Assembly: GCA_011050525.1 (NCBI GenBank)
Contig: DRFO01000017.1
Coordinates: 62,001-126,000, forward strand
Direction of reading: 5' to 3'
Length of the DNA: 64,000 bases
Origin: Halopseudomonas xinjiangensis
GTDB lineage: Bacteria; Pseudomonadota; Gammaproteobacteria; Pseudomonadales; Pseudomonadaceae
The notes below the pieces were generated by a model. That model searched no databases, was not told the DNA's origin, and saw nothing but the letters and a program-made list of their open reading frames with translations. The translations under genes and the position numbers were made by a program. Below are positions 1,805-43,431 of this stretch, one piece after another (position 1 is the first letter of the stretch; each line of letters begins with the position of its first letter).

Positions 1805-3160
1805 ATGAGCGACACAGACGAACGCATTATTCAGGCGATCAACGATTGCGCCATTCCGTTGCAGGGCGACTCCACCGATTACGACCGGATTGTCGAGGCG
1901 TCTCGTGGCAAGAGCTTTGTATTGATTGGCGAGGCCTCCCACGGCACCGAGGATTTCTATAGGCACCGTGCGCTGATCACTCGGCGACTGATCGAGGAGC
2001 ATGGCTTTGCGGCGGTGGCGGTGGAAGCCGACTGGCCGGATGCCTATGCCATCAACCATCACGTCTGGGCCTCTGACCCGGCTGTTTCTCACGAAACGGT
2101 GTTTGAAGTATTTGAACGCTTTCCCACCTGGATGTGGGCGAACACCGAAGTGCTCGATTTTGTCCGCTGGCTTGCTTCCTTCAATCAGTCCAAGAGCAGA
2201 TCAGAGACAGGAGAGCGACCGGTCGGGTTTTATGGCCTGGATCTCTACAGCATGGCCAGCTCTGCCCATGCGGTTATAGGTTATCTGGAACGGCATGATC
2301 CGCCTGCAGCGCGGCGAGCTCGCGAGCGGTACGCCTGTCTCGATCAATTTATGGAAGATCCCGCGCGTTATGGCCAGGCGGTGGAGTTTGGCCTCAGCGA
2401 ATCCTGTGAACAGGCAATTACTGAACAACTGATGGACCTGCAAGGCAAAGCGTTGCAACGCCTTACCGGCCTGGGTCTCGTAGAGGACGAGCAGCGCTTC
2501 TGCGTCGAGCAGAACGCCAGGCTGGTAAGCAATGCCGAAAAGTACTACAGAGCCATGTTTCGCGGACGGCCAAGCTCCTGGAACCTACGTGACAGCCACA
2601 TGTTCCAGACGCTCGAAGCGCTGCGTGAACACCTCAACCATCAGTTGGGACGCGAAGCTGGCATTGTGGTCTGGGCTCACAATTCACATATCGGTAACGC
2701 AGCTGCTACGGAAATGGGTCGCTGGGGAGAGCACAATATTGGTCAGCTGGCTCGGGAGAGCTATGGGGATAAGGCTCTGCTAGTAGGATTTTCGACCGCT
2801 GAGGGTGAAGTGACAGCGGCCTCGGACTGGGATGCGCCTGCTGAACGGAAACGCGTCCGCAAACCCTTGGCGGGGAGTTACGAAAGCCTGTTTCAGCGAG
2901 CCAGGTGCAACCGGTTCATGCTGGATCTGCGCGAGCAGAATGAAGCTGCCAGGTTGCTCGCAGAGCCCAGGCTGCAACGGGCAATTGGCGTCATTTATCG
3001 TCCGGAAACCGAGCGTCAGAGCCACTATTTTCAAAGTCGGCTACCCGAGCAGTACGATTTCATGATTCACCTGGACGAAACCCGTGCACTGGTGCCGCTG
3101 CATGATGAGGCGAACCCTGCGCACAATGAACCTGATAACACCTACCCTAGCGGGATGTGA
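1805..3160 (+). CDS. Erythromycin esterase family protein
   Basis: A 451-residue protein of the erythromycin esterase/succinoglycan-biosynthesis-like family. Family motifs are GEASHGTEDFYRHR (residues 42-55), VEADWP (73-78), LRDSHM (261-266) and AHNSHIG (291-297); these carry the conserved His and Glu residues of the EreA/EreB-type active site. There is no signal peptide, so it is probably cytosolic. Chromosomal members next to a phosphoribosyltransferase usually have unknown substrates and should not be assumed to give macrolide resistance. GAGAAGG lies upstream of the ATG. It converges on yejK, with only 15 bases between the stops. Confidence 0.82.
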   Translation: MSDTDERIIQAINDCAIPLQGDSTDYDRIVEASRGKSFVLIGEASHGTEDFYRHRALITRRLIEEHGFAAVAVEADWPDAYAINHHVWASDPAVSHETVFEVFERFPTWMWANTEVLDFVRWLASFNQSKSRSETGERPVGFYGLDLYSMASSAHAVIGYLERHDPPAARRARERYACLDQFMEDPARYGQAVEFGLSESCEQAITEQLMDLQGKALQRLTGLGLVEDEQRFCVEQNARLVSNAEKYYRAMFRGRPSSWNLRDSHMFQTLEALREHLNHQLGREAGIVVWAHNSHIGNAAATEMGRWGEHNIGQLARESYGDKALLVGFSTAEGEVTAASDWDAPAERKRVRKPLAGSYESLFQRARCNRFMLDLREQNEAARLLAEPRLQRAIGVIYRPETERQSHYFQSRLPEQYDFMIHLDETRALVPLHDEANPAHNEPDNTYPSGM

Positions 3161-12518: not shown

Positions 12519-12854
12519 CTAGCGTCGGGTCAGTGGTGGGCGTTCGAACGAAACGCCGATCAGGCCATGGTTCATCAGTGCACGTATATTGCCATGCGAT
12601 TCACCTTGCGGATCATCCAGCACCGCCTGGTAGTGTTCGGCGAAACACTGCAACGCCTGTGTGTCGCTAAGACCAAGATCGATCGCCATGGCCAGCACCT
12701 TGCACGAACCCTGGTTCTGCTCGCGAGTGTTGCTTACGTCTCCGTTCGCAAAGGCGCTGGGCTGGTACACGTAGTATGCATCAATGAACGCCAGGGTATC
12801 GTTGAAGCACAGCCCCGGCGTACCCAGTCGACTGCGGAAGATTTCAGGATTCAT
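12519..12854 (-). CDS. HopJ type III effector family protein
   Basis: A 111-residue protein matching the HopJ family, with the segment FNDTLAFIDAYYVYQPSAFA near the N-terminus and NIRALMNHGLIGVSF near the C-terminus. Despite the family name, homologues occur in many bacteria with no type III secretion and probably have a housekeeping role. The start at 12854 is chosen because homologues begin at MNPEIF; the open frame continues upstream only inside the previous gene. It overlaps the DUF1244 gene by 11 bases, suggesting coupling. Confidence 0.85.
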   Translation of the reverse strand: MNPEIFRSRLGTPGLCFNDTLAFIDAYYVYQPSAFANGDVSNTREQNQGSCKVLAMAIDLGLSDTQALQCFAEHYQAVLDDPQGESHGNIRALMNHGLIGVSFERPPLTRR

Positions 12855-13152
12855 GCTTGTCTGGTTTTTGCGTATTTTGAAAGTTCGCCTGCTGGGCGGG
12901 TGTTGCTTCCTTCTGGTATTTGTTCTTCCAGTCGGTGTAGGGCATGCCATAAATAGCTTCCCGCGCCTCATCCAGGTTCACCGGAATGTCCATGTCGTCT
13001 GCCGCGCCCTTGTACCATTTAGCCAGACAATTTCGGCAGAACCCGGCAAGGTTCATGAGCTCGATGTTCTGTACGTCCTTGCGGCTGTTCAAATGGCTTA
13101 CCAGATTCCGAAAGGCCGCAGCTTCCAGTTCAATGCGCTCTTGCTTGGTCAT
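12844..13152 (-). CDS. DUF1244-domain protein
   Basis: A 102-residue protein of the DUF1244 family. The conserved part runs from about residue 5 to 80 and includes NLAGFCRNCLAKWY (two cysteines, about residues 34-47) and YGMPYTDWK. It is small, cytosolic and of unknown biochemical role. Its 3' end overlaps the HopJ-family gene by 11 bases; the two probably form an operon. The gap to folX (105 bases) contains nothing I can name. Confidence 0.85.
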   Translation of the reverse strand: MTKQERIELEAAAFRNLVSHLNSRKDVQNIELMNLAGFCRNCLAKWYKGAADDMDIPVNLDEAREAIYGMPYTDWKNKYQKEATPAQQANFQNTQKPDKHES

Positions 13153-13257: not shown

Positions 13258-13632
13258 TCACGTCCGCTGCGCGCTCAGCGTGATCGAGACCGATTCAGCG
13301 AACCTCAAAGCATGCGGTTTGTCGACCTCCACCTCAGCATATTGAACCTGAGGATGGCGCATCACCAGATCCAGCAGTTCCTGCGTCAACCGTTCCAAAA
13401 GGGCAAAGCGATTGTCCTCGACGTGCCGGATCAGTTCCTTGGTAATGGTCCGGTAGTTCAGTGCATGCTCAATCTGGTTGATTTCCACCGCGCTCACCGC
13501 TGGGTAACGCACGATGACATTGATCAGGACGTCCTGCTTGTTGGCTATTTCTTCATCATTGATGCCGATAAAGGTGCGTAAGCTCAGATTCTTGATATGT
13601 ATTCGAGCCGTGCCGGGAGTCAAGGTGTTCAT
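13258..13632 (-). CDS. folX: Dihydroneopterin triphosphate 2'-epimerase
   Basis: A 124-residue member of the FolB/FolX pterin family. FolX epimerises 7,8-dihydroneopterin triphosphate to the dihydromonapterin form. The FolX assignment over FolB rests on its position after folE and folM and on the family-like stretch [18 protein letters not shown] (about residues 22-39). It starts one base after the folE stop. With FolM it should make tetrahydromonapterin, in pseudomonads the cofactor of phenylalanine hydroxylase. Confidence 0.88.
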
Positions 13633-13633
13633 G

Positions 13634-14197
13634 TCAGCTTCCCCGAGTAATCAACTGCAGAAATTCCTGCCTGGTAGTGCCTGAACTGCGGAAAGCGCCA
13701 AGCATTACCGAGCTGTGCATGGACGAGTTCTGCTTCTCCACCCCGCGCATCATCATGCACATGTGTTTGGCCTCGATTACTACCGCCACGCCTTTGGCAT
13801 TGGTTACCGATTGCAGTGCTTCGGCAATTTGCCTGGTGAGATTCTCCTGAATCTGCAGCCGGCGCGCGAACATGTCCACAATACGAGCTACCTTGGACAG
13901 GCCAATGACCTTCCCGGTGGGGATATAGGCTACGTGTGCCTTGCCAATAAACGGCAGCATATGATGTTCGCACAGCGAGTAGAGTTCGATGTCCTTGACG
14001 ATCACCATTTCGTCGTTATCAGAATCAAAGAGGGCGCCGTTGACGATCTCTTCCAGCGACTCCCCATAGCCTCGGCAGAGAAACTGCATTGCCTTGGCGG
14101 CACGCAGCGGGGTCCCTTGCAAACCCCCGCGCTCGGTGTCTTCCCCCAGGTTGGTGAGGATTTCGTGGTAGTTCTGGGTAAGCTTTTCAATACTCAT
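13634..14197 (-). CDS. folE: GTP cyclohydrolase I
   Basis: A 187-residue FolE-type enzyme that converts GTP to dihydroneopterin triphosphate, the first step of pterin synthesis. Typical residues include the zinc/catalytic segment [10 protein letters not shown] (about 73-82), [13 protein letters not shown] and the second zinc cysteine in KHMCMMMRG. It belongs to the folM-folE-folX operon. In Pseudomonas putida a folE gene is reported as light-inducible under LitR-type regulators; a LitR-like gene lies divergent here, so light control is a reasonable inference. Confidence 0.95.
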
Positions 14198-14216
14198 GAA
14201 GATTTCTCATCGAGGA

Positions 14217-14918
14217 TCATTTGAGGTCTCTGCCGCCATTCAGCTCCAGGCAGGTTCCTGTTACGTAGGGTGTGTCCATCAGATAACGTATGGACTGATA
14301 GACGACTTCCGGGCCGGGCTCTATCCCCAGCGCCGACTTGCTCAAGGCTTTGGCGCGATATTCGGGACTGTCGTCAGTGTTGAACATGACCAGTGCTGGC
14401 GCGATGGTATTTACTTTGACGCCTGGAGCAAGCCGGGCGGCATAGGACAGCGATAGCGCTTCCAGTCCGGCTTTGCTTGAGCAGTAGGCAATGTGGCGGG
14501 CGCTCCCGCGGCGCGCAACATGATCGCTGATATGAATGATGTCTGCTGGCAGACCGGGGTCACGAAGCTCGTTAAAGGCGTTGTTGAGCAAATATGGCGC
14601 CTGCATATGGACCATGAACATCTGCTGAAACGCATCCTGCTGGTCTTTATCATCCAGCCACAGGGAGGCATTATGAACAAGCGCGCGCAAGCGTACCCGT
14701 TTCTGTCTGAGGGTGTCGATCAGCCCTTGGATGCCGTCCCAGGTCGAAAAGTCGGCAACAATCACGTCGATGCCCACCAGGGGTCGGCTTGCCCATTCAG
14801 CGCGTAGATGCCGACAGGTAATGATCACCGCGAACCCGTCGTCCACGAACCGCTGGGCACAATGCAGGCCAACGCGTTGCGCAGCTCCGGTAATAAGCAC
14901 TGTGGGCTTGGAATCCAT
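14217..14918 (-). CDS. folM: Dihydromonapterin reductase
   Basis: A 233-residue short-chain dehydrogenase/reductase. The N-terminus VLITGAAQRVGLHCAQRFVD holds a glycine-rich nucleotide motif with the Arg seen in FolM/pteridine reductases. The usual Tyr-x-x-x-Lys pair is in IAYCSSKAGLEAL, where the expected Tyr is present and Lys follows four residues later. It reduces dihydromonapterin to the tetrahydro form. It is the first gene of the operon, about 200 bases downstream of the predicted promoter at 15117-15145, so the leader is long. Confidence 0.88.
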   Translation of the reverse strand: MDSKPTVLITGAAQRVGLHCAQRFVDDGFAVIITCRHLRAEWASRPLVGIDVIVADFSTWDGIQGLIDTLRQKRVRLRALVHNASLWLDDKDQQDAFQQMFMVHMQAPYLLNNAFNELRDPGLPADIIHISDHVARRGSARHIAYCSSKAGLEALSLSYAARLAPGVKVNTIAPALVMFNTDDSPEYRAKALSKSALGIEPGPEVVYQSIRYLMDTPYVTGTCLELNGGRDLK

Positions 14919-15116
14919 GAATCGTCGTGTCCCTCAGAGTTAGTAGGCAGTCTGCAGCCTGCGGAGCCTTGGTTGACTGCCTCCGTAAATGTCCGGGGCG
15001 GATATTATCACGCCTGAAGGTCCAAGTAGGCACCTACCTGCTGGCCAAGCCTGTTGAGACGGTTGCCGACGGACGCTTCTGGGTCCGAGGGTATCCATTC
15101 GCTTCTCGACGTAGCA

Positions 15117-15145
15117 TGAATATCTGTACAATCCTGTACAGTCAA
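15117..15145 (-). promoter_or_regulatory. Candidate folM-folE-folX promoter with LitR-type operator
   Basis: On the minus strand, TTGACT (15145-15140) is followed by a 17-base spacer and TATTCA (15122-15117). The spacer region contains two perfect TGTACA palindromes (15135-15140 and 15125-15130) four bases apart. TGTACA is the half-site of the operator reported for the P. putida LitR homologue PplR1, but the reported spacing is 12 bases, so the match is partial. The divergent regulator gene starts 62 bases away on the other side, so the site could control both. Confidence 0.5.
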
Positions 15146-15206
15146 GAAGCGTATACGTGGCAGCAGTGCCGACCAGTCCGTCAGGGCTCATACAGTGTAA
15201 GAGAAT

Positions 15207-16169
15207 ATGACCAACCACTCGTCCACACCATTTCTGTCGCGAACCGACCTGGACGCCGAGGATTTGTATCCTATACGCGAGGTCTCCAGGCTGACGGGCG
15301 TCAATCCCGTCACGCTTCGGGCGTGGGAGCGGCGCTATGGTCTGCTGGTTCCACACCGTACCGAAAGCGGACACCGTCTTTATTCGATGGCCGATATTGA
15401 TCGGGTCAGAGCGGTGACGGCCTGGATCGAGCGGGGAGTGACGGTCAGCAAGGTTGCTACCATCATCGACCGAGAGGCCGTTCCCCAGGCTAGATCACCT
15501 GGTTCCGATATCCACCCTGACACGACAGATAGCAGCGATTATCAGCCCTGGCAAAACAGGCTGGTCGAAGTCGTCAGCCAGTTCGACATACGTGAACTCG
15601 AACGGGTATACGGACAGATTTTTGCCAGCTTCCCGTTGCCAGTGGTCTTTGCTGAAATCGTCCTTCCCGTGTGGCGACGTTACCGCGAAGCGCACCTGGG
15701 GTCGGACGGTTCGGGACATTGGACATTTCTCGATACCTTTCTACGGGGCAAGATTTTTCAGCGGTTGGGCTATATGCGTGCCGATGTTCCGCTGGTGCTT
15801 TTGATAAATCTACCCGGCCCCCAGGAGGAGCTGGAAAGTCTGGTCGTTGCCTTGTCGATAGCCGCGGCGGACGCGGATGTCGCCTTTGTGCCCCAAAGCT
15901 TTCCGCTCACCGAGATCGCCATAATGGCCGAGCGTTCACGCTGTGCTGCGGTAGTGCTGCTGAGCGAGCGGACGGTTGACACGGATATGCTGGCCCGACA
16001 TTTACCCCGCTTGGAGCAGGCGCTTGAATGCCCATTGGGTATAGCGGGCAAGATATGTGAGATACAGACACCGCAACTCGAGCAAGCCGGACTTGTCTGT
16101 CTTGGCGACGCCACGCAGGCGCTGACCGCCAGGGTCCGAGCGCTTTTGGCAGGAAGGCTCGATGCTTGA
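15207..16169 (+). CDS. MerR-family regulator, LitR/CarH-like, probably B12-independent (class II)
   Basis: A 320-residue regulator. A MerR helix-turn-helix domain (about residues 19-90, with IREVSRLTGVNPVTLRAWERR) is joined to a helical bundle and a Rossmann-like domain (about 115-320) like that of LitR/CarH photoreceptors. Where B12-binding members have Trp-x9-Glu-His in the bundle, this protein has Gly-His (170-171); where they have the axial histidine, it has Glu within PGPQEELES (203-211). This points to class II LitR, which in P. putida acts with short LOV proteins and not B12. It lies divergent from folM-folE-folX, and a LOV gene is 1.5 kb downstream. Confidence 0.82.
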   Translation: MTNHSSTPFLSRTDLDAEDLYPIREVSRLTGVNPVTLRAWERRYGLLVPHRTESGHRLYSMADIDRVRAVTAWIERGVTVSKVATIIDREAVPQARSPGSDIHPDTTDSSDYQPWQNRLVEVVSQFDIRELERVYGQIFASFPLPVVFAEIVLPVWRRYREAHLGSDGSGHWTFLDTFLRGKIFQRLGYMRADVPLVLLINLPGPQEELESLVVALSIAAADADVAFVPQSFPLTEIAIMAERSRCAAVVLLSERTVDTDMLARHLPRLEQALECPLGIAGKICEIQTPQLEQAGLVCLGDATQALTARVRALLAGRLDA

Positions 16170-16330
16170 GCGTCCGATAGTCATTCCCTTTATCTAAGCT
16201 GCTAAGGTTTGTAACCATCAAACTCCGCCCGTTGGTCCTGCTCTTTTCTCCCTTTATCCGGATAATGACTTGCGAGTCGTCATTTATTCTGAGGCGGCGC
16301 AAGATGCTGGCTTTTTAATTTCATTAACAC

Positions 16331-16339
16331 TGCTATGAT
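16331..16339 (+). promoter_or_regulatory. Extended -10 promoter element for the HD-GYP gene
   Basis: TGCTATGAT reads as an extended -10 (TGn-TATGAT) 81 bases before the start codon; there is no good -35. The intergenic stretch 16170-16419 holds this element and a 6-bp stem (264-269 with 279-284 of the 16-kb block, that is 16264-16284) followed by TTATT, which could weakly end the regulator transcript. Confidence 0.35.
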
Positions 16340-16419
16340 CTTCTTTAAGTGCTCTGCCTGTCGCTACACGATTTGGCTTCACCCTGGCGTTCAGGTCGAT
16401 CAAGGAAGGTAACGGTACT

Positions 16420-17667
16420 GTGATGCCTAAAACAATAAAGCAGTTGCATCAGGTCAAGCTTTCATCTGCTCATTTGCAGCTGGGTATGTATGTCTGTGAA
16501 CTGGATCGTGACTGGCTGGAGACGCCGTTTTTATTCCAGGGTTTTCTGATCTCCGACCCGGACGACCTTCTGGCGCTGAAAAGCATTTGCGAGTTTGTGT
16601 ACATCGATTTGCATAAAACCAGAGCGCTGAACCTGGACCTGCACGCCCTTGCCAATACGACGCAGCGCAGCGAGGCCGTTTACCAGGTCTCTACCAGTAT
16701 CGAGACTGAAATCAAGACCGCCAATACCAGCTATCGCAATGCTTTCTTCGAAGTAAAAACGATGTTGCAGCACGTCTTCGAAGGGGAGGGATTCAGCACC
16801 GGTAATATGGTCGTAGCGGTTCGGTCATGTCTGGATTCCATCCTTCGCAACCCCTCCGCCCTGCTGTGGCTTACCCGCATCAAACACGTTGATCAGTACA
16901 CCGCAGAACACTGCCTGAACGTCGGGATCGAGGCAATGGCGTTGGGGCGTCATCTGGGGCTGGGCAGGAAGCACATCGAGCTGCTGGGTCTGTGCGGCAT
17001 GTTGCATGACGTGGGCAAGATGTCAGTGGATCAGTCCATTCTGAACAAGGCGGGCAAGCTGACCGCGAACGAATTCGAGCACATCAAGAAGCACGTCATC
17101 TTTGGTCGGGACAAGCTGAACGAAGATTCGGAGATGCCGCCGCAGGTGGCCAATGTCGCCTATAGTCACCATGAGCGGCTCGACGGCCAGGGTTATCCCC
17201 GCGGCCTGCCGGCGCACAGGCTGGATTTCTATACCCGCGTTATCACCATCGTCGATGCCTATGATGCGATAACCAGCGTACGGTGTTACAGCTCGAGCAA
17301 CTCGTCGGCCGAAGCGCTGAGAATTCTTTATGCCAACCGCAGTGCTCAATTCGACGAAAAACTGGTAGTCAAGTTTATCGAATGCATCGGAATCTACCCA
17401 CCGGGAGCGCTGGTGGAGATGAATACAGGTGAGGTAGGGGTGGTGTTGTCGGTAGACCCGCTCAAGCGCTTGTTGCCGAAGGTCGCGTTGGTGCGGGACG
17501 CCGACAAGGGGCATATGGAACAGCTGATCGTGGACCTTGCAGCGGAACCGCTGGAAAACGGTACGCGCAAGTACTGGGTTGCCAAAGTGCTGGTCGACGG
17601 GTCACACGGAGTGGATCTGGAAGACTTCACTATTCATAACGTGCGGCTGAGCGACGGAGCTTCCTGA
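16420..17667 (+). CDS. HD-GYP domain cyclic-di-GMP phosphodiesterase
   Basis: A 415-residue protein with an N-terminal DUF3391-type region (about residues 1-130) and an HD-GYP domain (about 145-340). Catalytic and metal motifs are intact: H164, HDVGK with HD at 196-197, HH at 250-251 and GQGYP at 257-260. Such enzymes hydrolyse c-di-GMP to pGpG or GMP, usually lowering biofilm and raising motility. No membrane segments. The start is GTG at 16420 (AAGGAAGG about 10 bases upstream); an ATG one codon later is possible. It lies between a LitR-like regulator and a LOV photoreceptor gene, which suggests a light link. Confidence 0.9.
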   Translation: MMPKTIKQLHQVKLSSAHLQLGMYVCELDRDWLETPFLFQGFLISDPDDLLALKSICEFVYIDLHKTRALNLDLHALANTTQRSEAVYQVSTSIETEIKTANTSYRNAFFEVKTMLQHVFEGEGFSTGNMVVAVRSCLDSILRNPSALLWLTRIKHVDQYTAEHCLNVGIEAMALGRHLGLGRKHIELLGLCGMLHDVGKMSVDQSILNKAGKLTANEFEHIKKHVIFGRDKLNEDSEMPPQVANVAYSHHERLDGQGYPRGLPAHRLDFYTRVITIVDAYDAITSVRCYSSSNSSAEALRILYANRSAQFDEKLVVKFIECIGIYPPGALVEMNTGEVGVVLSVDPLKRLLPKVALVRDADKGHMEQLIVDLAAEPLENGTRKYWVAKVLVDGSHGVDLEDFTIHNVRLSDGAS

Positions 17668-17691
17668 ATAAAGACCCGACCAACGCGGTTT

Positions 17692-18141
17692 TCAGGCGCG
17701 GTTGGACTGCACCAGCTGCGCGCGCAACGCTGCGACCTCTGCTTCCAGCTCTTCCACTTTCTGTAGCGCCAGTACCTGCTCGGTGACATCCTTCTGAATG
17801 CCAATGAAATAGGTCAGCTGGTCTGCCTCGTTGAATACAGGCGTTATCGACAACTCGTTCCAGAATAGCGTGCCGTCTTTGCGATAATTGCGGATGGTCT
17901 GCCGTACAGGCTCGCCCGTGGTAACCGCTTGCCTGATCACGTCCAAGCCTGGCTGATCGCGATCTCCCATCTGGAGAAAGCGGCAGTCCTGATAGAGAAT
18001 GTCGTCGGTGTTGTACCCGGTCAGGTGCTCGAACGCCTTGTTGACGTAGATCAGAATGTTGTCGTCGCCCTCCTGCTCGGCCACCACAATGCCGTCATTC
18101 GAAGCGTCAACTACCAGCTGCAGTAATTTTGCGTTGATCAT
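17692..18141 (-). CDS. Short LOV blue-light photoreceptor
   Basis: A 149-residue protein made of one LOV (PAS) core (about residues 15-119) and a C-terminal helix with coiled-coil pattern (about 120-145), with no effector domain. The photoactive motif YQDCRFLQ places the adduct-forming cysteine at residue 53 when the start is MINAKLLQ; this equals the numbering of P. putida PpSB1-LOV and supports the start at 18141 over an upstream in-frame ATG. FMN-contact residues include Arg54, Arg61 and Arg70, with Leu at 66, plus the Asn in RNYRKDG and in FWNELSI and the Gln in GIQKDV. It converges on the HD-GYP gene. Likely partner: the LitR-like regulator. Confidence 0.92.
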   Translation of the reverse strand: MINAKLLQLVVDASNDGIVVAEQEGDDNILIYVNKAFEHLTGYNTDDILYQDCRFLQMGDRDQPGLDVIRQAVTTGEPVRQTIRNYRKDGTLFWNELSITPVFNEADQLTYFIGIQKDVTEQVLALQKVEELEAEVAALRAQLVQSNRA

Positions 18142-18266
18142 TGCTACAACGTTTCTCTTTGGGTGTGTCGCCATTCTATATCAACCGCAGGCGCTGTCTA
18201 CCGCGACCGGGACGGCCACAGCTGTTTGCGGCATAATGCTGTTTTCATCGTCTACAGGAGCACCTG

Positions 18267-18737
18267 ATGCATCTGGGAATAGTGAGCGGTTCCGTCTTCG
18301 GCACCGCTGATCTGGTAGCTGACGAGGCTGCCGATTATTGCACCAATGCCGGGCTACAAGTGACCCGCATCAGTCCGCCCTCGGTGAGCCGCCTGCTGGA
18401 AGCTGACGTTCAGTCTCTGCTGATATGTTGTTCAACTACAGGAATGGGGGAAGTGCCGGACAGCTTGCTTCCCTTTTATGTGGAAATGCAGGATCGTTTT
18501 CCCCTGCTCACCGATATCCCCTTTGGCGTAATCGCCCTTGGCGACTCGGCCTACGGTGATACATTCTGCCAGGCCGGGGAACAGTTCCGAGAGTTACTGC
18601 AGGACCTGCAAGCCCGCGAAATATTGCCGATGCTGCAACTGGACGCCAGCGAGACCGTCACCCCTGAAACCGATGCGCAGCCCTGGCTCAATAAGCTGGT
18701 TAGCTTGCTTGGCAAAGCCGACATCCCTACTCACTGA
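18267..18737 (+). CDS. Flavodoxin (MioC-like)
   Basis: A 156-residue flavodoxin-fold protein. The FMN phosphate loop is GSVFGTAD (about residues 8-15), and the later segments CCSTTGMGEVPD (about 54-65) and ALGDSAYGDTFC match the family. It carries single electrons in the cytosol; the acceptor is unknown. TACAGGAG lies just before the start. I recall a flavodoxin close to folM in P. aeruginosa, so this is probably the conserved neighbour, with the light-sensing genes between. Its 3' end overlaps the convergent Crp/Fnr gene by 11 bases. Confidence 0.88.
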   Translation: MHLGIVSGSVFGTADLVADEAADYCTNAGLQVTRISPPSVSRLLEADVQSLLICCSTTGMGEVPDSLLPFYVEMQDRFPLLTDIPFGVIALGDSAYGDTFCQAGEQFRELLQDLQAREILPMLQLDASETVTPETDAQPWLNKLVSLLGKADIPTH

Positions 18738-41236: not shown

Positions 41237-42451
41237 CTAGCACGGCTCCCGCGCCAGACGTAGCCCGCTGAACTGCCAACGCGCCTGCGGTGGAAAGAAG
41301 TTGCGATAGCTGGTGCGGGAATGTCCCGTTGGGGTGGCGAGGGATGCTCCGCGCAGGACCATCTGGTTGATCATGAACTTGCCGTTGTATTCACCGACCG
41401 CACCCGGCGCTGGCTGGTACCCCGGGTAGGCAAGATAGGCGCTATTTGTCCATTGCCATACTTCGTTGAACAGGCCGGACAACTGGGGTTCGGATCGCGC
41501 TGCAAACTCCCATTCCGCTTCGGTCGGCAATCTGGCATTGGCCCAGCGCGCATAGGCGTCTGCCTCATAAAAGCTGACGTGGCTCAGTGCTGCGTCATGC
41601 GCAAGGGGCTGCTCGCCATGCAAGGTGAAGTTATGCCAGCCTTCGTCATCGTGCCGCCAGTACAAAGGGGCCCGCCACTGTTCCTGGCACAGCAGGTCCC
41701 ACCCATCCGATAACCATAATTCCGGGCGGTTATAGCCCCCATCGGCCATGAACGCCAGATAGTCGCCATTGGTCACGTTGTGGGTCGCCAGCTCAAAGGG
41801 AGCGAGCCATACGCGGTGACGGGGCAGCTCATTGTCATAGCAAAAACCGCTCGCGTCATAGCCGTTCTCAATCAACCCGCCGCTGAGAAGAATGAAGCCG
41901 TTGCCCGTCCCCTGTTCAGACTGAGCGGACTGATCCGCCGAGATGGGTCGCCAGGCAGGGCGCAGCGGGTTGGCAAAGAAATGGTGCTTCAAGTCGGTCA
42001 GGATCAGCTCCTGGTGCTGCTGCTCATGATTTAGCCCAAGCTCTATCAGGTCCAGTACGGCACCAGGGAGCCCCTGGTTCTGCATGGCGCTCCGCAAATG
42101 CTGATCGACATGCGCACGATAGTCGAGCACCTCCTTTAGGGTAGGGCGGGACAACATGCCCCGTTCAGCCCGGGTATGGCGCTCGCCCACGCCGACGTAG
42201 TAGGAGTTGAAAAGCACCTTGAAGGCTGGGTCGTAAGCCGCAGGTGCATCAGCCAGGGATGCCAGCACGAATGTTTCGAAGAACCAGGTGGTATGTGCCA
42301 GATGCCACTTTACGGGGCTGGCATCGGGCATCGATTGCAGTTGGCAGTCTTCTGCGTTGAGACTCTCGATGAGGTCTGTGGTGTGCCTTCGGACCTCATC
42401 AAACCGGGCGGTCAGCATTTCGCTGCGCGGGACGGTGTGATGAATGCTCAT
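41237..42451 (-). CDS. egtB: Ergothioneine biosynthesis protein EgtB (sulfoxide synthase)
   Basis: A 404-residue non-haem iron enzyme that joins trimethylhistidine to a thiol and oxygen, forming the C-S bond of ergothioneine. The DinB-like N-domain carries iron-ligand candidates His50 (VKWHLAH) and His141/His145 (NHEQQHQE); the C-type FGE-sulfatase domain (about residues 185-404) includes RLPTEAEWEFAAR and the end segment RWQFSGLRLA. The start at 42451 gives an ATGA overlap with the upstream methyltransferase; the longer frame would run inside that gene. OvoA is an alternative, but the EgtD-type neighbour favours EgtB. Confidence 0.9.
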   Translation of the reverse strand: MSIHHTVPRSEMLTARFDEVRRHTTDLIESLNAEDCQLQSMPDASPVKWHLAHTTWFFETFVLASLADAPAAYDPAFKVLFNSYYVGVGERHTRAERGMLSRPTLKEVLDYRAHVDQHLRSAMQNQGLPGAVLDLIELGLNHEQQHQELILTDLKHHFFANPLRPAWRPISADQSAQSEQGTGNGFILLSGGLIENGYDASGFCYDNELPRHRVWLAPFELATHNVTNGDYLAFMADGGYNRPELWLSDGWDLLCQEQWRAPLYWRHDDEGWHNFTLHGEQPLAHDAALSHVSFYEADAYARWANARLPTEAEWEFAARSEPQLSGLFNEVWQWTNSAYLAYPGYQPAPGAVGEYNGKFMINQMVLRGASLATPTGHSRTSYRNFFPPQARWQFSGLRLAREPC

Positions 42452-43431
42452 GAGGTTGGCTCCGCGAGAAATACGCCAAACCATTGCCTGGGGTCCGTCC
42501 AGAGCTGGTGGCGTCCGAACCCGGCTTCCGCCAGCATCTCTCCGAAGGCTGCCGTCGTATATTTGTGGGAATACTCTGTAAGGACCTGTTCCCCGGCGCT
42601 GAAGCATCGGGAGTTGCCCTCTCCGAGGTTGACCTTGTGGTCTCGTTTGGCGACCAGATGCATTTCTATGCGGCTGCGATCAGAATCGAATATTGCCCGA
42701 TGGGAAAAATTGTTGGTGGCAAAATCAGCAGCGATTTCCCGGTTCACCACTTCCAGGACGTTGAGATTGAAGGCGGCGGTTACGCCAAGGGCATCGTCGT
42801 AAGCCGCTTCGAGTATTTGTGCAGGCTTCACCAGGTCAACGCATATCAACAAGCGCCCCTTGTCACCACAATGCCGCCGGATGTTGCGCAGCAGCCTCAA
42901 TGCATCCGCGCGCGCGAAATTGCCTATGGATGATCCTGGATAAAAGAAAACAGGCGCCGCATTGGGCTTTTCTTCCAACAAATGCTCAAGGTTTAGGGTG
43001 CGGGTGAAATCACTGACTACGCCAACGCATTCCAGCCCAGGATGACAGGCGGCGACGCTGGTCAGAGAGGTCTGCAGAAAATCTCCGGCGATATCCACTC
43101 CTACCAGCCTTGCCGGGGATATCTGGTCAAGCCAGCGTTCGGACTTGGCGCAATCGCCACAGCCGAGATCGATCCATTGTGCTCCGGGCGGTAGAGCAGC
43201 GGCTATTTCCTCGGCATGGTCTCGAAAGATGGCGGCTTCGGTACGGGTGGGATAGTACTCGTCCAGTTTGCAGATGCGGGTGAACAGCTCGCAACCCACC
43301 GCGTCGTAGAAATATTTCGAATCTATGCGTGCTGCCGGTTGCATCAATCCCTTCAGCAAACTGGCTCTTTCTTCCTGGACGTTCAGGTGCAGGGTATTTT
43401 CGATGCGAGGCAGGGGGAGGGCTATATTCAC
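42448..43431 (-). CDS. egtD: L-histidine N(alpha)-methyltransferase EgtD
   Basis: A 327-residue SAM methyltransferase of the EgtD family (DUF2260-type fold), which trimethylates the alpha-amino group of histidine. Visible segments are KYFYDAVGCELFTRICKLDEYYPTRTE near residue 40 (shown in part), the SAM-binding IDLGCGDCAKSE (about 87-98), and FFYPGSSIGNF (about 155-165). Start codon is GTG with AAAGG about 8 bases upstream. It forms a two-gene unit with egtB; EgtA, EgtC and EgtE genes are not adjacent. Confidence 0.9.
   Translation of the reverse strand: MNIALPLPRIENTLHLNVQEERASLLKGLMQPAARIDSKYFYDAVGCELFTRICKLDEYYPTRTEAAIFRDHAEEIAAALPPGAQWIDLGCGDCAKSERWLDQISPARLVGVDIAGDFLQTSLTSVAACHPGLECVGVVSDFTRTLNLEHLLEEKPNAAPVFFYPGSSIGNFARADALRLLRNIRRHCGDKGRLLICVDLVKPAQILEAAYDDALGVTAAFNLNVLEVVNREIAADFATNNFSHRAIFDSDRSRIEMHLVAKRDHKVNLGEGNSRCFSAGEQVLTEYSHKYTTAAFGEMLAEAGFGRHQLWTDPRQWFGVFLAEPTS

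Follow-up and report, generated by a model that had tools for sequence, protein, structure and literature searches.

Organization of the locus

Within the 64,000-nucleotide stretch of Halopseudomonas xinjiangensis DNA analysed here (the window; contig DRFO01000017.1, positions 62,001 to 126,000), positions 13258-18141 carry the genes of a short LOV protein, a MerR-type regulator of the LitR/CarH kind (LitR2), an HD-GYP protein and a folM-folE-folX operon. We consider it likely that the LOV protein and LitR2 work as a blue-light switch in which a short LOV is paired with a class II LitR, after the type of PmSB-LOV and PmlR2 described in Pseudomonas mendocina, and that it is placed beside one of its likely target operons. 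The six genes all lie where an initial annotation of the sequence had put them, with LitR2 divergent from the fol operon and with photoreceptor, regulator and fol genes inside 5 kb. The features, in window coordinates, are

13258-13632, minus strand: folX, dihydroneopterin triphosphate 2'-epimerase (NCBIfam NF008418, 196.6 bits against a cut-off of 152)
13634-14197, minus strand: folE, GTP cyclohydrolase I (TIGR00063, 252.5 bits against a cut-off of 181.6)
14217-14918, minus strand: folM, dihydromonapterin reductase (NCBIfam NF005066, 287.9 bits against a cut-off of 249)
15117-15140, no strand assigned: LitR2 operator candidate in the folM-LitR2 gap, with TGTACA at 15125 and 15135
15207-16169, plus strand: LitR2, class II LitR/CarH-like MerR regulator (PmlR2-like) and predicted LOV effector (best PDB match CarH, by sequence and predicted fold)
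16420-17667, plus strand: DUF3391 and HD-GYP protein, candidate cyclic di-GMP (c-di-GMP) phosphodiesterase (motifs HDVGK and HHERLDGQGYP intact)
17692-18141, minus strand: short LOV protein of 149 amino acids with Cys53 (Pfam PAS_9; alignment with short LOV proteins of the PDB)

FolE, FolX and FolM, each above its curated NCBIfam cut-off, make up a tetrahydromonapterin pathway.

The short LOV protein

The LOV reading frame opens at 18174 and the start at 18141 was picked from homologues. Counted from this start, the cysteine in YQDCRFLQ is residue 53, as the initial annotation had it, and two solved short LOV proteins of the Pseudomonas type in the alignment show the same MINA start and the same cysteine motif. 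The protein scores 75.8 bits against PAS_9, which is above the cut-off, and 153.7 bits against the YtvA family, which is below that family's cut-off of 250. Its Pfam matches are exclusively of the PAS type, with no effector domain, and short LOV proteins supply its top-ranking chains in the PDB. With a LOV core, the adduct cysteine and no effector domain, it is predicted to be a short LOV blue-light receptor.

LitR2 and its predicted fold

LitR2 matches MerR_1 and has a CarH NCBIfam match of 86.9 bits, under the cut-off of 400; its closest solved relatives in a phmmer search against the PDB are CarH/LitR proteins. At the positions of Thermus CarH that we take to bind B12, the Rossmann-loop histidine (GERHE) aligns with a glutamate of LitR2, and of the Trp-His pair in the helical bundle the tryptophan falls in a gap and the histidine aligns with a histidine. 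Neither B12-binding nor B12-binding_2 of Pfam matched LitR2 at E 0.001. The initial description of a MerR protein of LitR/CarH shape without B12 ligands therefore agrees with the alignment, apart from the one bundle histidine retained. LitR1, the paralogue in the same genome, scores 28.1 bits against B12-binding_2 (above its cut-off of 23) and 26.8 bits against B12-binding (below its cut-off of 32.1).

An AlphaFold2 model of LitR2 was computed from 40 aligned sequences, namely that of the window and 39 picked out of 72 relatives, and has a mean predicted local distance difference test score (pLDDT) of 86.1 and a predicted TM-score (pTM) of 0.65. The best PDB matches of the model are CarH chains, over nearly the full length, with a TM-score of about 0.5 (normalized to the query length); its C-terminal part matches CarH chains across some 200 residues. 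The fold of the B12 domains thus seems to be kept in the model despite the Rossmann His-to-Glu change and the missing bundle tryptophan. LitR2 shares the MerR DNA-binding domain and the predicted fold with the class I CarH/LitR proteins of Thermus and Myxococcus, but differs from them at key positions for B12 binding and, because these positions are changed, is probably without intrinsic photosensing. Sequence identity to the copies in two records named P. mendocina (44.7-46.3%), together with gene order, classes LitR2 as PmlR2-like.

Distribution and architecture of the cassette

The distribution of the genes was surveyed in two sets of loci. The genus set consists of 37 genomes (thresholds: E up to 1e-40 for LOV and up to 1e-10 for LitR); the related loci are the best 80 of at least 530 places matching the LOV protein, all 80 of which were examined and some of which are cut by contig ends. 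The two sets are not independent, since several genomes of the genus contribute to both. In the genus, LOV is found in 30 of the 37 genomes and LitR in exactly the same 30, while the best 80 related loci hold a LitR2 match in 72 cases, folE in 59 and both in 58. The clustering put forward in the initial annotation is not supported as something special, since 46 of the 80 share the order fldP-LOV-LitR2-folE.

LitR2 adjoins folM (15 genomes), folE (one) or a DCC1-like gene (nine) in 25 of the 30 LitR genomes, and the LOV-LitR pair of the other five stands next to phrB. The fol genes are visible in 24 of these 25 cassette loci; the contig of G027 ends before them, the G031 locus is likewise cut by a contig end, and for G033 the adjacency of LOV and HD-GYP to the cassette is inferred because both lie on another contig. 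In four genomes (G020, G028, G032 and G036) folE is followed by a diverged folM-like gene (33-38% identity), and no folX match was obtained. A fol operon free of the cassette occurs at 11 of 36 loci, five in LitR genomes and six in the seven LitR-free genomes, with the closed-up order HopJ-folX-folE-folM-fldP-Crp; the seventh LitR-free genome (G004) gave no folM match. The gap between folM and fldP measures 122-296 bp at these loci versus 1.7-4.5 kb in the 23 cassette loci measured. A rapidly built tree of four flanking proteins requires two changes in the presence of the cassette, which may be losses or gains. The genus thereby offers a natural comparison: the LitR2 cassette is present at 25 loci, 24 of them with visible fol genes, and missing from 11 fol loci, and the half-site described below is enriched at the former only.

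The neighbourhood varies in other respects. In relatives the fol genes are preceded by a co-directional gene for a DCC1-like thiol-disulfide oxidoreductase (L015 11855-12307) or for an ABM-domain protein (L061 12466-13032); neither is present in the window. On the far side, a HopJ-family gene (window 12519-12971) and a DUF1244 gene (12844-13152) adjoin folX, and HopJ was matched at all 11 cassette-free fol loci and DUF1244 at three of them. Four Stutzerimonas records (L054, L063, L066 and L067) have two LOV matches per locus, near litR1-phrB.

Operator candidates

The half-site TGTACA was taken beforehand from PMC9758184. The two copies in the window, which the initial annotation had passed over, are 10 bp apart. 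Their distances are 207 and 217 bp to the start of folM, and 82 and 72 bp to that of LitR2, and the site agrees with the consensus TRTACA-N12-TGTAYA at 10 of 12 positions. TGTACA is present upstream of LitR2 in 25 of the 25 gaps, which lead to folM (15), the DCC1-like gene (nine) or folE (one), and these gaps hold 43 copies against 2.8 expected from shuffles. The exact N12 consensus has no occurrence in the window. Across the genus it was counted 58 times, with sites in 24 of the 30 LitR genomes and in none of the seven LitR-free genomes; 35 of the 58 lie at most 5 kb from a LitR gene. A reversed-pattern control gave six sites, every one in LitR genomes. A further motif, TGTACAAT-N3/4-GTAYA, was found in 14 of the 25 loci versus 0.01 expected, at a distance of 60-131 bp ahead of the LitR2 match; this count is descriptive because the motif was defined after viewing the same 25 regions. 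The form TGTACA-N12-TATTCA of the window site was rejected as unspecific (eight strand hits with up to one mismatch versus three in the control).

Three exact consensus sites were found in the genome of the window organism, two of them in the litR1-phrB region, where one lies ahead of a 2-thiouracil desulfurase/DUF1722 gene and the other between FAD oxidoreductase and epimerase genes. The third precedes a methyl-accepting chemotaxis receptor gene (L100 4806-4829, contig C24) and, as a single site, could reflect either a light-regulated receptor or chance. A 35 bp inverted repeat with LitR-type half-sites at 0, 11, 18 and 29 bp (L156 3197-3231) lies immediately past the litR2 stop and ahead of a terminator-like hairpin; its 11 bp steps are reminiscent of CarH operators.

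Comparison with published light-responsive loci

In P. mendocina NBRC 14162, pmlR2, pmSB-LOV and folM-folE-folX lie at one locus, and pmlR2, PME15565 and pmSB-LOV are stated to be conserved across Pseudomonas (PMC9758184). A photocycle was shown for the LOV protein, which binds the N-terminal domain of PmlR2 in a light-dependent manner, with loss of DNA binding and derepression in vitro, and gel shifts showed PmlR2 binding to the folM promoter region (PMC9758184). By quantitative reverse-transcription PCR (qRT-PCR), light induced folM 2.4-2.5-fold and folE 1.6-3.3-fold, with values of 1.4-1.5-fold for pmlR2 and 0.9-1.1 for pmSB-LOV (PMC9758184). The lit complex remained on DNA in the gel shift, contrary to BIAcore, and the authors could not transform this strain, which kept them from testing in vivo roles (PMC9758184). 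In P. putida KT2440, class II LitR and short LOV proteins control phrB, ufaM and folE (PMC9758184, introduction; PMC8508746), and short LOV genes of the P. pertucinogena lineage were noted earlier (PMC6922532).

The window resembles the P. mendocina locus in its genes, in the fol operon beside litR, in a nearby LOV gene with Cys53 and in TGTACA-type sites. It differs in the gene that separates litR2 from LOV, which is HD-GYP in the window and PilZ-like at the loci of the two records named P. mendocina, in the ABM gene that precedes folM in those two loci and in an operator that reaches only 10 of 12 positions of the published consensus. The pairing of a class II LitR with a short LOV protein is common to the window and P. 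putida KT2440, which has three regulators (PplR1-3) and two LOV proteins (PpSB1-LOV and PpSB2-LOV), as opposed to two LitR matches and one short-LOV match in the window genome. The locus thus represents the PmSB-LOV/PmlR2 kind and carries HD-GYP as an accessory gene; the idea behind it is largely in print already. What is added here is the extension of the published switch to another genus and the comparative evidence at genus level.

Proposed light control of the fol operon

From the gene identities, motifs, predicted fold, synteny, co-occurrence and half-site enrichment obtained here, we infer the functional steps in the window genome, above all the control of folM, and not only of litR2, by 15117-15140. 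In the dark, LitR2 would occupy the TGTACA-type sites of the divergent folM-LitR2 promoter and repress it. In blue light, Cys53 of the LOV protein would bond to flavin mononucleotide; the lit protein would then bind the N-terminal domain of LitR2, which would leave the DNA, and folM-folE-folX would be transcribed and tetrahydromonapterin would rise. Transcription of litR2 and, elsewhere in the genome, of the litR1-phrB region would probably follow as well. The initial annotation had proposed that the LOV/LitR pair stands beside its target operon and that pterin synthesis is probably light-induced; the measured induction in the equivalent P. mendocina arrangement and the half-site upstream of LitR2 in every cassette locus both favour this proposal, and light control of folM-folE-folX in the window organism is likely.

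Several observations weigh against this interpretation. The window site is not an exact consensus, and 3.5% of 200 shuffles reach 10 of 12 positions; the N12 form has a shuffle value below 0.05 in only 10 of the 25 regions, with several at 0.6 or more. A promoter scan of 14900-18400 gave a single sigma-70-like site, located before LOV, and none before folM or LitR2; shuffled sequences gave 1.8 on average. TGTACA is absent upstream of folM in the 11 cassette-free loci (450 bp each, reaching into fldP), which signifies a lack of enrichment and nothing more because chance predicts 0.39; five of these loci belong to LitR genomes whose LOV pair lies elsewhere. Nor are the comparative counts independent of phylogeny, and a Fisher test of 25/25 against 0/11, which ignores relatedness, was not used as evidence. 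The induction in P. mendocina is modest (1.6-3.3-fold over folM and folE; PMC9758184).

Since the site is nearer litR2 than folM, it may serve litR2 only. If 15117-15140 merely autoregulated litR2, with LOV and LitR2 controlling litR1-phrB, the fol operon would not be light-induced in the window genome. Such an arrangement would fit the position of TGTACAAT-N3/4-GTAYA near LitR2, which in the window is 206 bp from folM, and the cassette-free fol operons, which indicate that the operon has a function of its own. However, folM and folE are light-induced in P. mendocina, PmlR2 binds the folM promoter region there (PMC9758184), and several congeners have hexamers closer to the fol side, for example G009 with three at 88, 120 and 140 bp; we regard autoregulation alone as unlikely. 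A LitR2 that senses B12 or a small molecule, leaving LOV with another partner, would accord with the CarH-like fold over nearly the whole length and with the retained bundle histidine. We hold it to be highly improbable in view of the Rossmann-loop glutamate, the missing tryptophan, the identical sets of 30 genomes in which LOV and LitR were matched and the demonstration that the P. mendocina proteins contact each other directly and in a light-dependent manner (PMC9758184).

A further possibility is that the switch also acts through the HD-GYP protein, so that light would alter c-di-GMP. The window protein has both the HD and the HHExxDGxGYP motifs, with 4mcw as best PDB match, and both are present in 14 of the 15 HD-GYP homologues scanned, the window's included. 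Matches (E up to 1e-60) occur in 15 of the 30 LitR genomes and in none of the seven LitR-free ones, and in G009, G035 and G033 an operator matching at 11 of 12 positions starts 220-317 bp upstream of HD-GYP, between LitR2 and HD-GYP or, in G033, upstream on the HD-GYP contig. The neighbouring place is filled by a PilZ-like gene of about 200 codons following LOV in 39 of the best 80 related loci (L061 10490-11122 and 38 others), probably the PME15565 of P. mendocina by position. Ten aligned PilZ-like proteins have a degenerate motif, RxxR for RxxxR plus E/DxSxxG, relative to what we take to be the PilZ reference motif, and of two scanned against the Pfam cut-off one was just over and one just under. 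PME15565 itself appears once in the P. mendocina main text, with no function given (PMC9758184). HD-GYP is beside LOV in only nine of the 30 LOV genomes and in three of the best 80 related loci, and its presence among cassette loci requires six changes on the tree, so it was rejected as a fixed part of the cassette; another four of these genomes (G006, G014, G027 and G028) carry a copy of 51-63% identity elsewhere, and G013, G014, G018 and G031 have copies of 42-44%. The window HD-GYP has no operator upstream (best 8 of 12), and in G009 a hairpin that by eye resembles a terminator separates the site from the gene. Because the gene is labile, the site in G009 is followed by a hairpin and the window lacks a site, we treat a c-di-GMP output as possible but doubtful. 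The preferred reading remains the LOV/LitR2 switch acting on the fol operon.

Pterin genes and possible uses of pterins

The window genome contains three folE and two folM matches, the second folM-like gene (64% identity) being on contig C34, so the copies linked to light may serve to supplement the supply. Phenylalanine hydroxylase, which the initial annotation had suggested as a pterin user, finds no backing: PF00351 had no match in the genome itself or in any of the 37 genus genomes (it was positive in one of 14 control genomes, Caulobacter), which argues against such a use. As for the suggested photolyase antenna, a photolyase gene, above the NCBIfam cut-off, adjoins litR1 in the same genome, so FolE could help to feed photolyase with folate. 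The product of FolX and FolM, however, is monapterin, which is not known as a photolyase antenna. Folate supply to photolyase is thus a fair idea for FolE and less so for FolX and FolM. A peak of a P. cichorii photolyase has been ascribed to methenyltetrahydrofolate (MTHF; PMC13274461).

In Agrobacterium, c-di-GMP is set via DcpA by PruR, whose ligand is likely to be a tetrahydromonapterin derivative (PMC13259868, a 2026 review). The window resembles this PruA-PruR-DcpA system in having a tetrahydromonapterin-making pathway near a c-di-GMP enzyme candidate. It differs in that its FolM matches the dihydromonapterin reductase family, and in that the Pfam matches of its HD-GYP protein include no periplasmic domain of the DcpA type. 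Moreover, the PruA homologue of P. aeruginosa is most active on dihydrofolate (PMC13259868), which speaks against a simple transfer to the window FolM. It is conceivable, if quite improbable, that the cassette makes a stand-alone monapterin operon light-driven, with tetrahydromonapterin serving as a messenger and not as a hydroxylase cofactor, and that this pterin shifts c-di-GMP and the motile-sessile choice through the local HD-GYP protein, the PilZ-like protein found elsewhere or a PruR-type receptor. Among the papers listed in literature searches, which covered few subscription journals, none combined LOV with HD-GYP, PilZ or pterin signalling. The purpose of light-induced monapterin where phenylalanine hydroxylase is not detectable becomes testable in existing species.

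Other genes of the window

Two further genes of the window may be mentioned. The protein encoded at 41237-42607 combines DinB_2 and FGE-sulfatase domains, an architecture like that of EgtB, and 1805-3160 encodes an erythromycin esterase family protein (Pfam PF05139).

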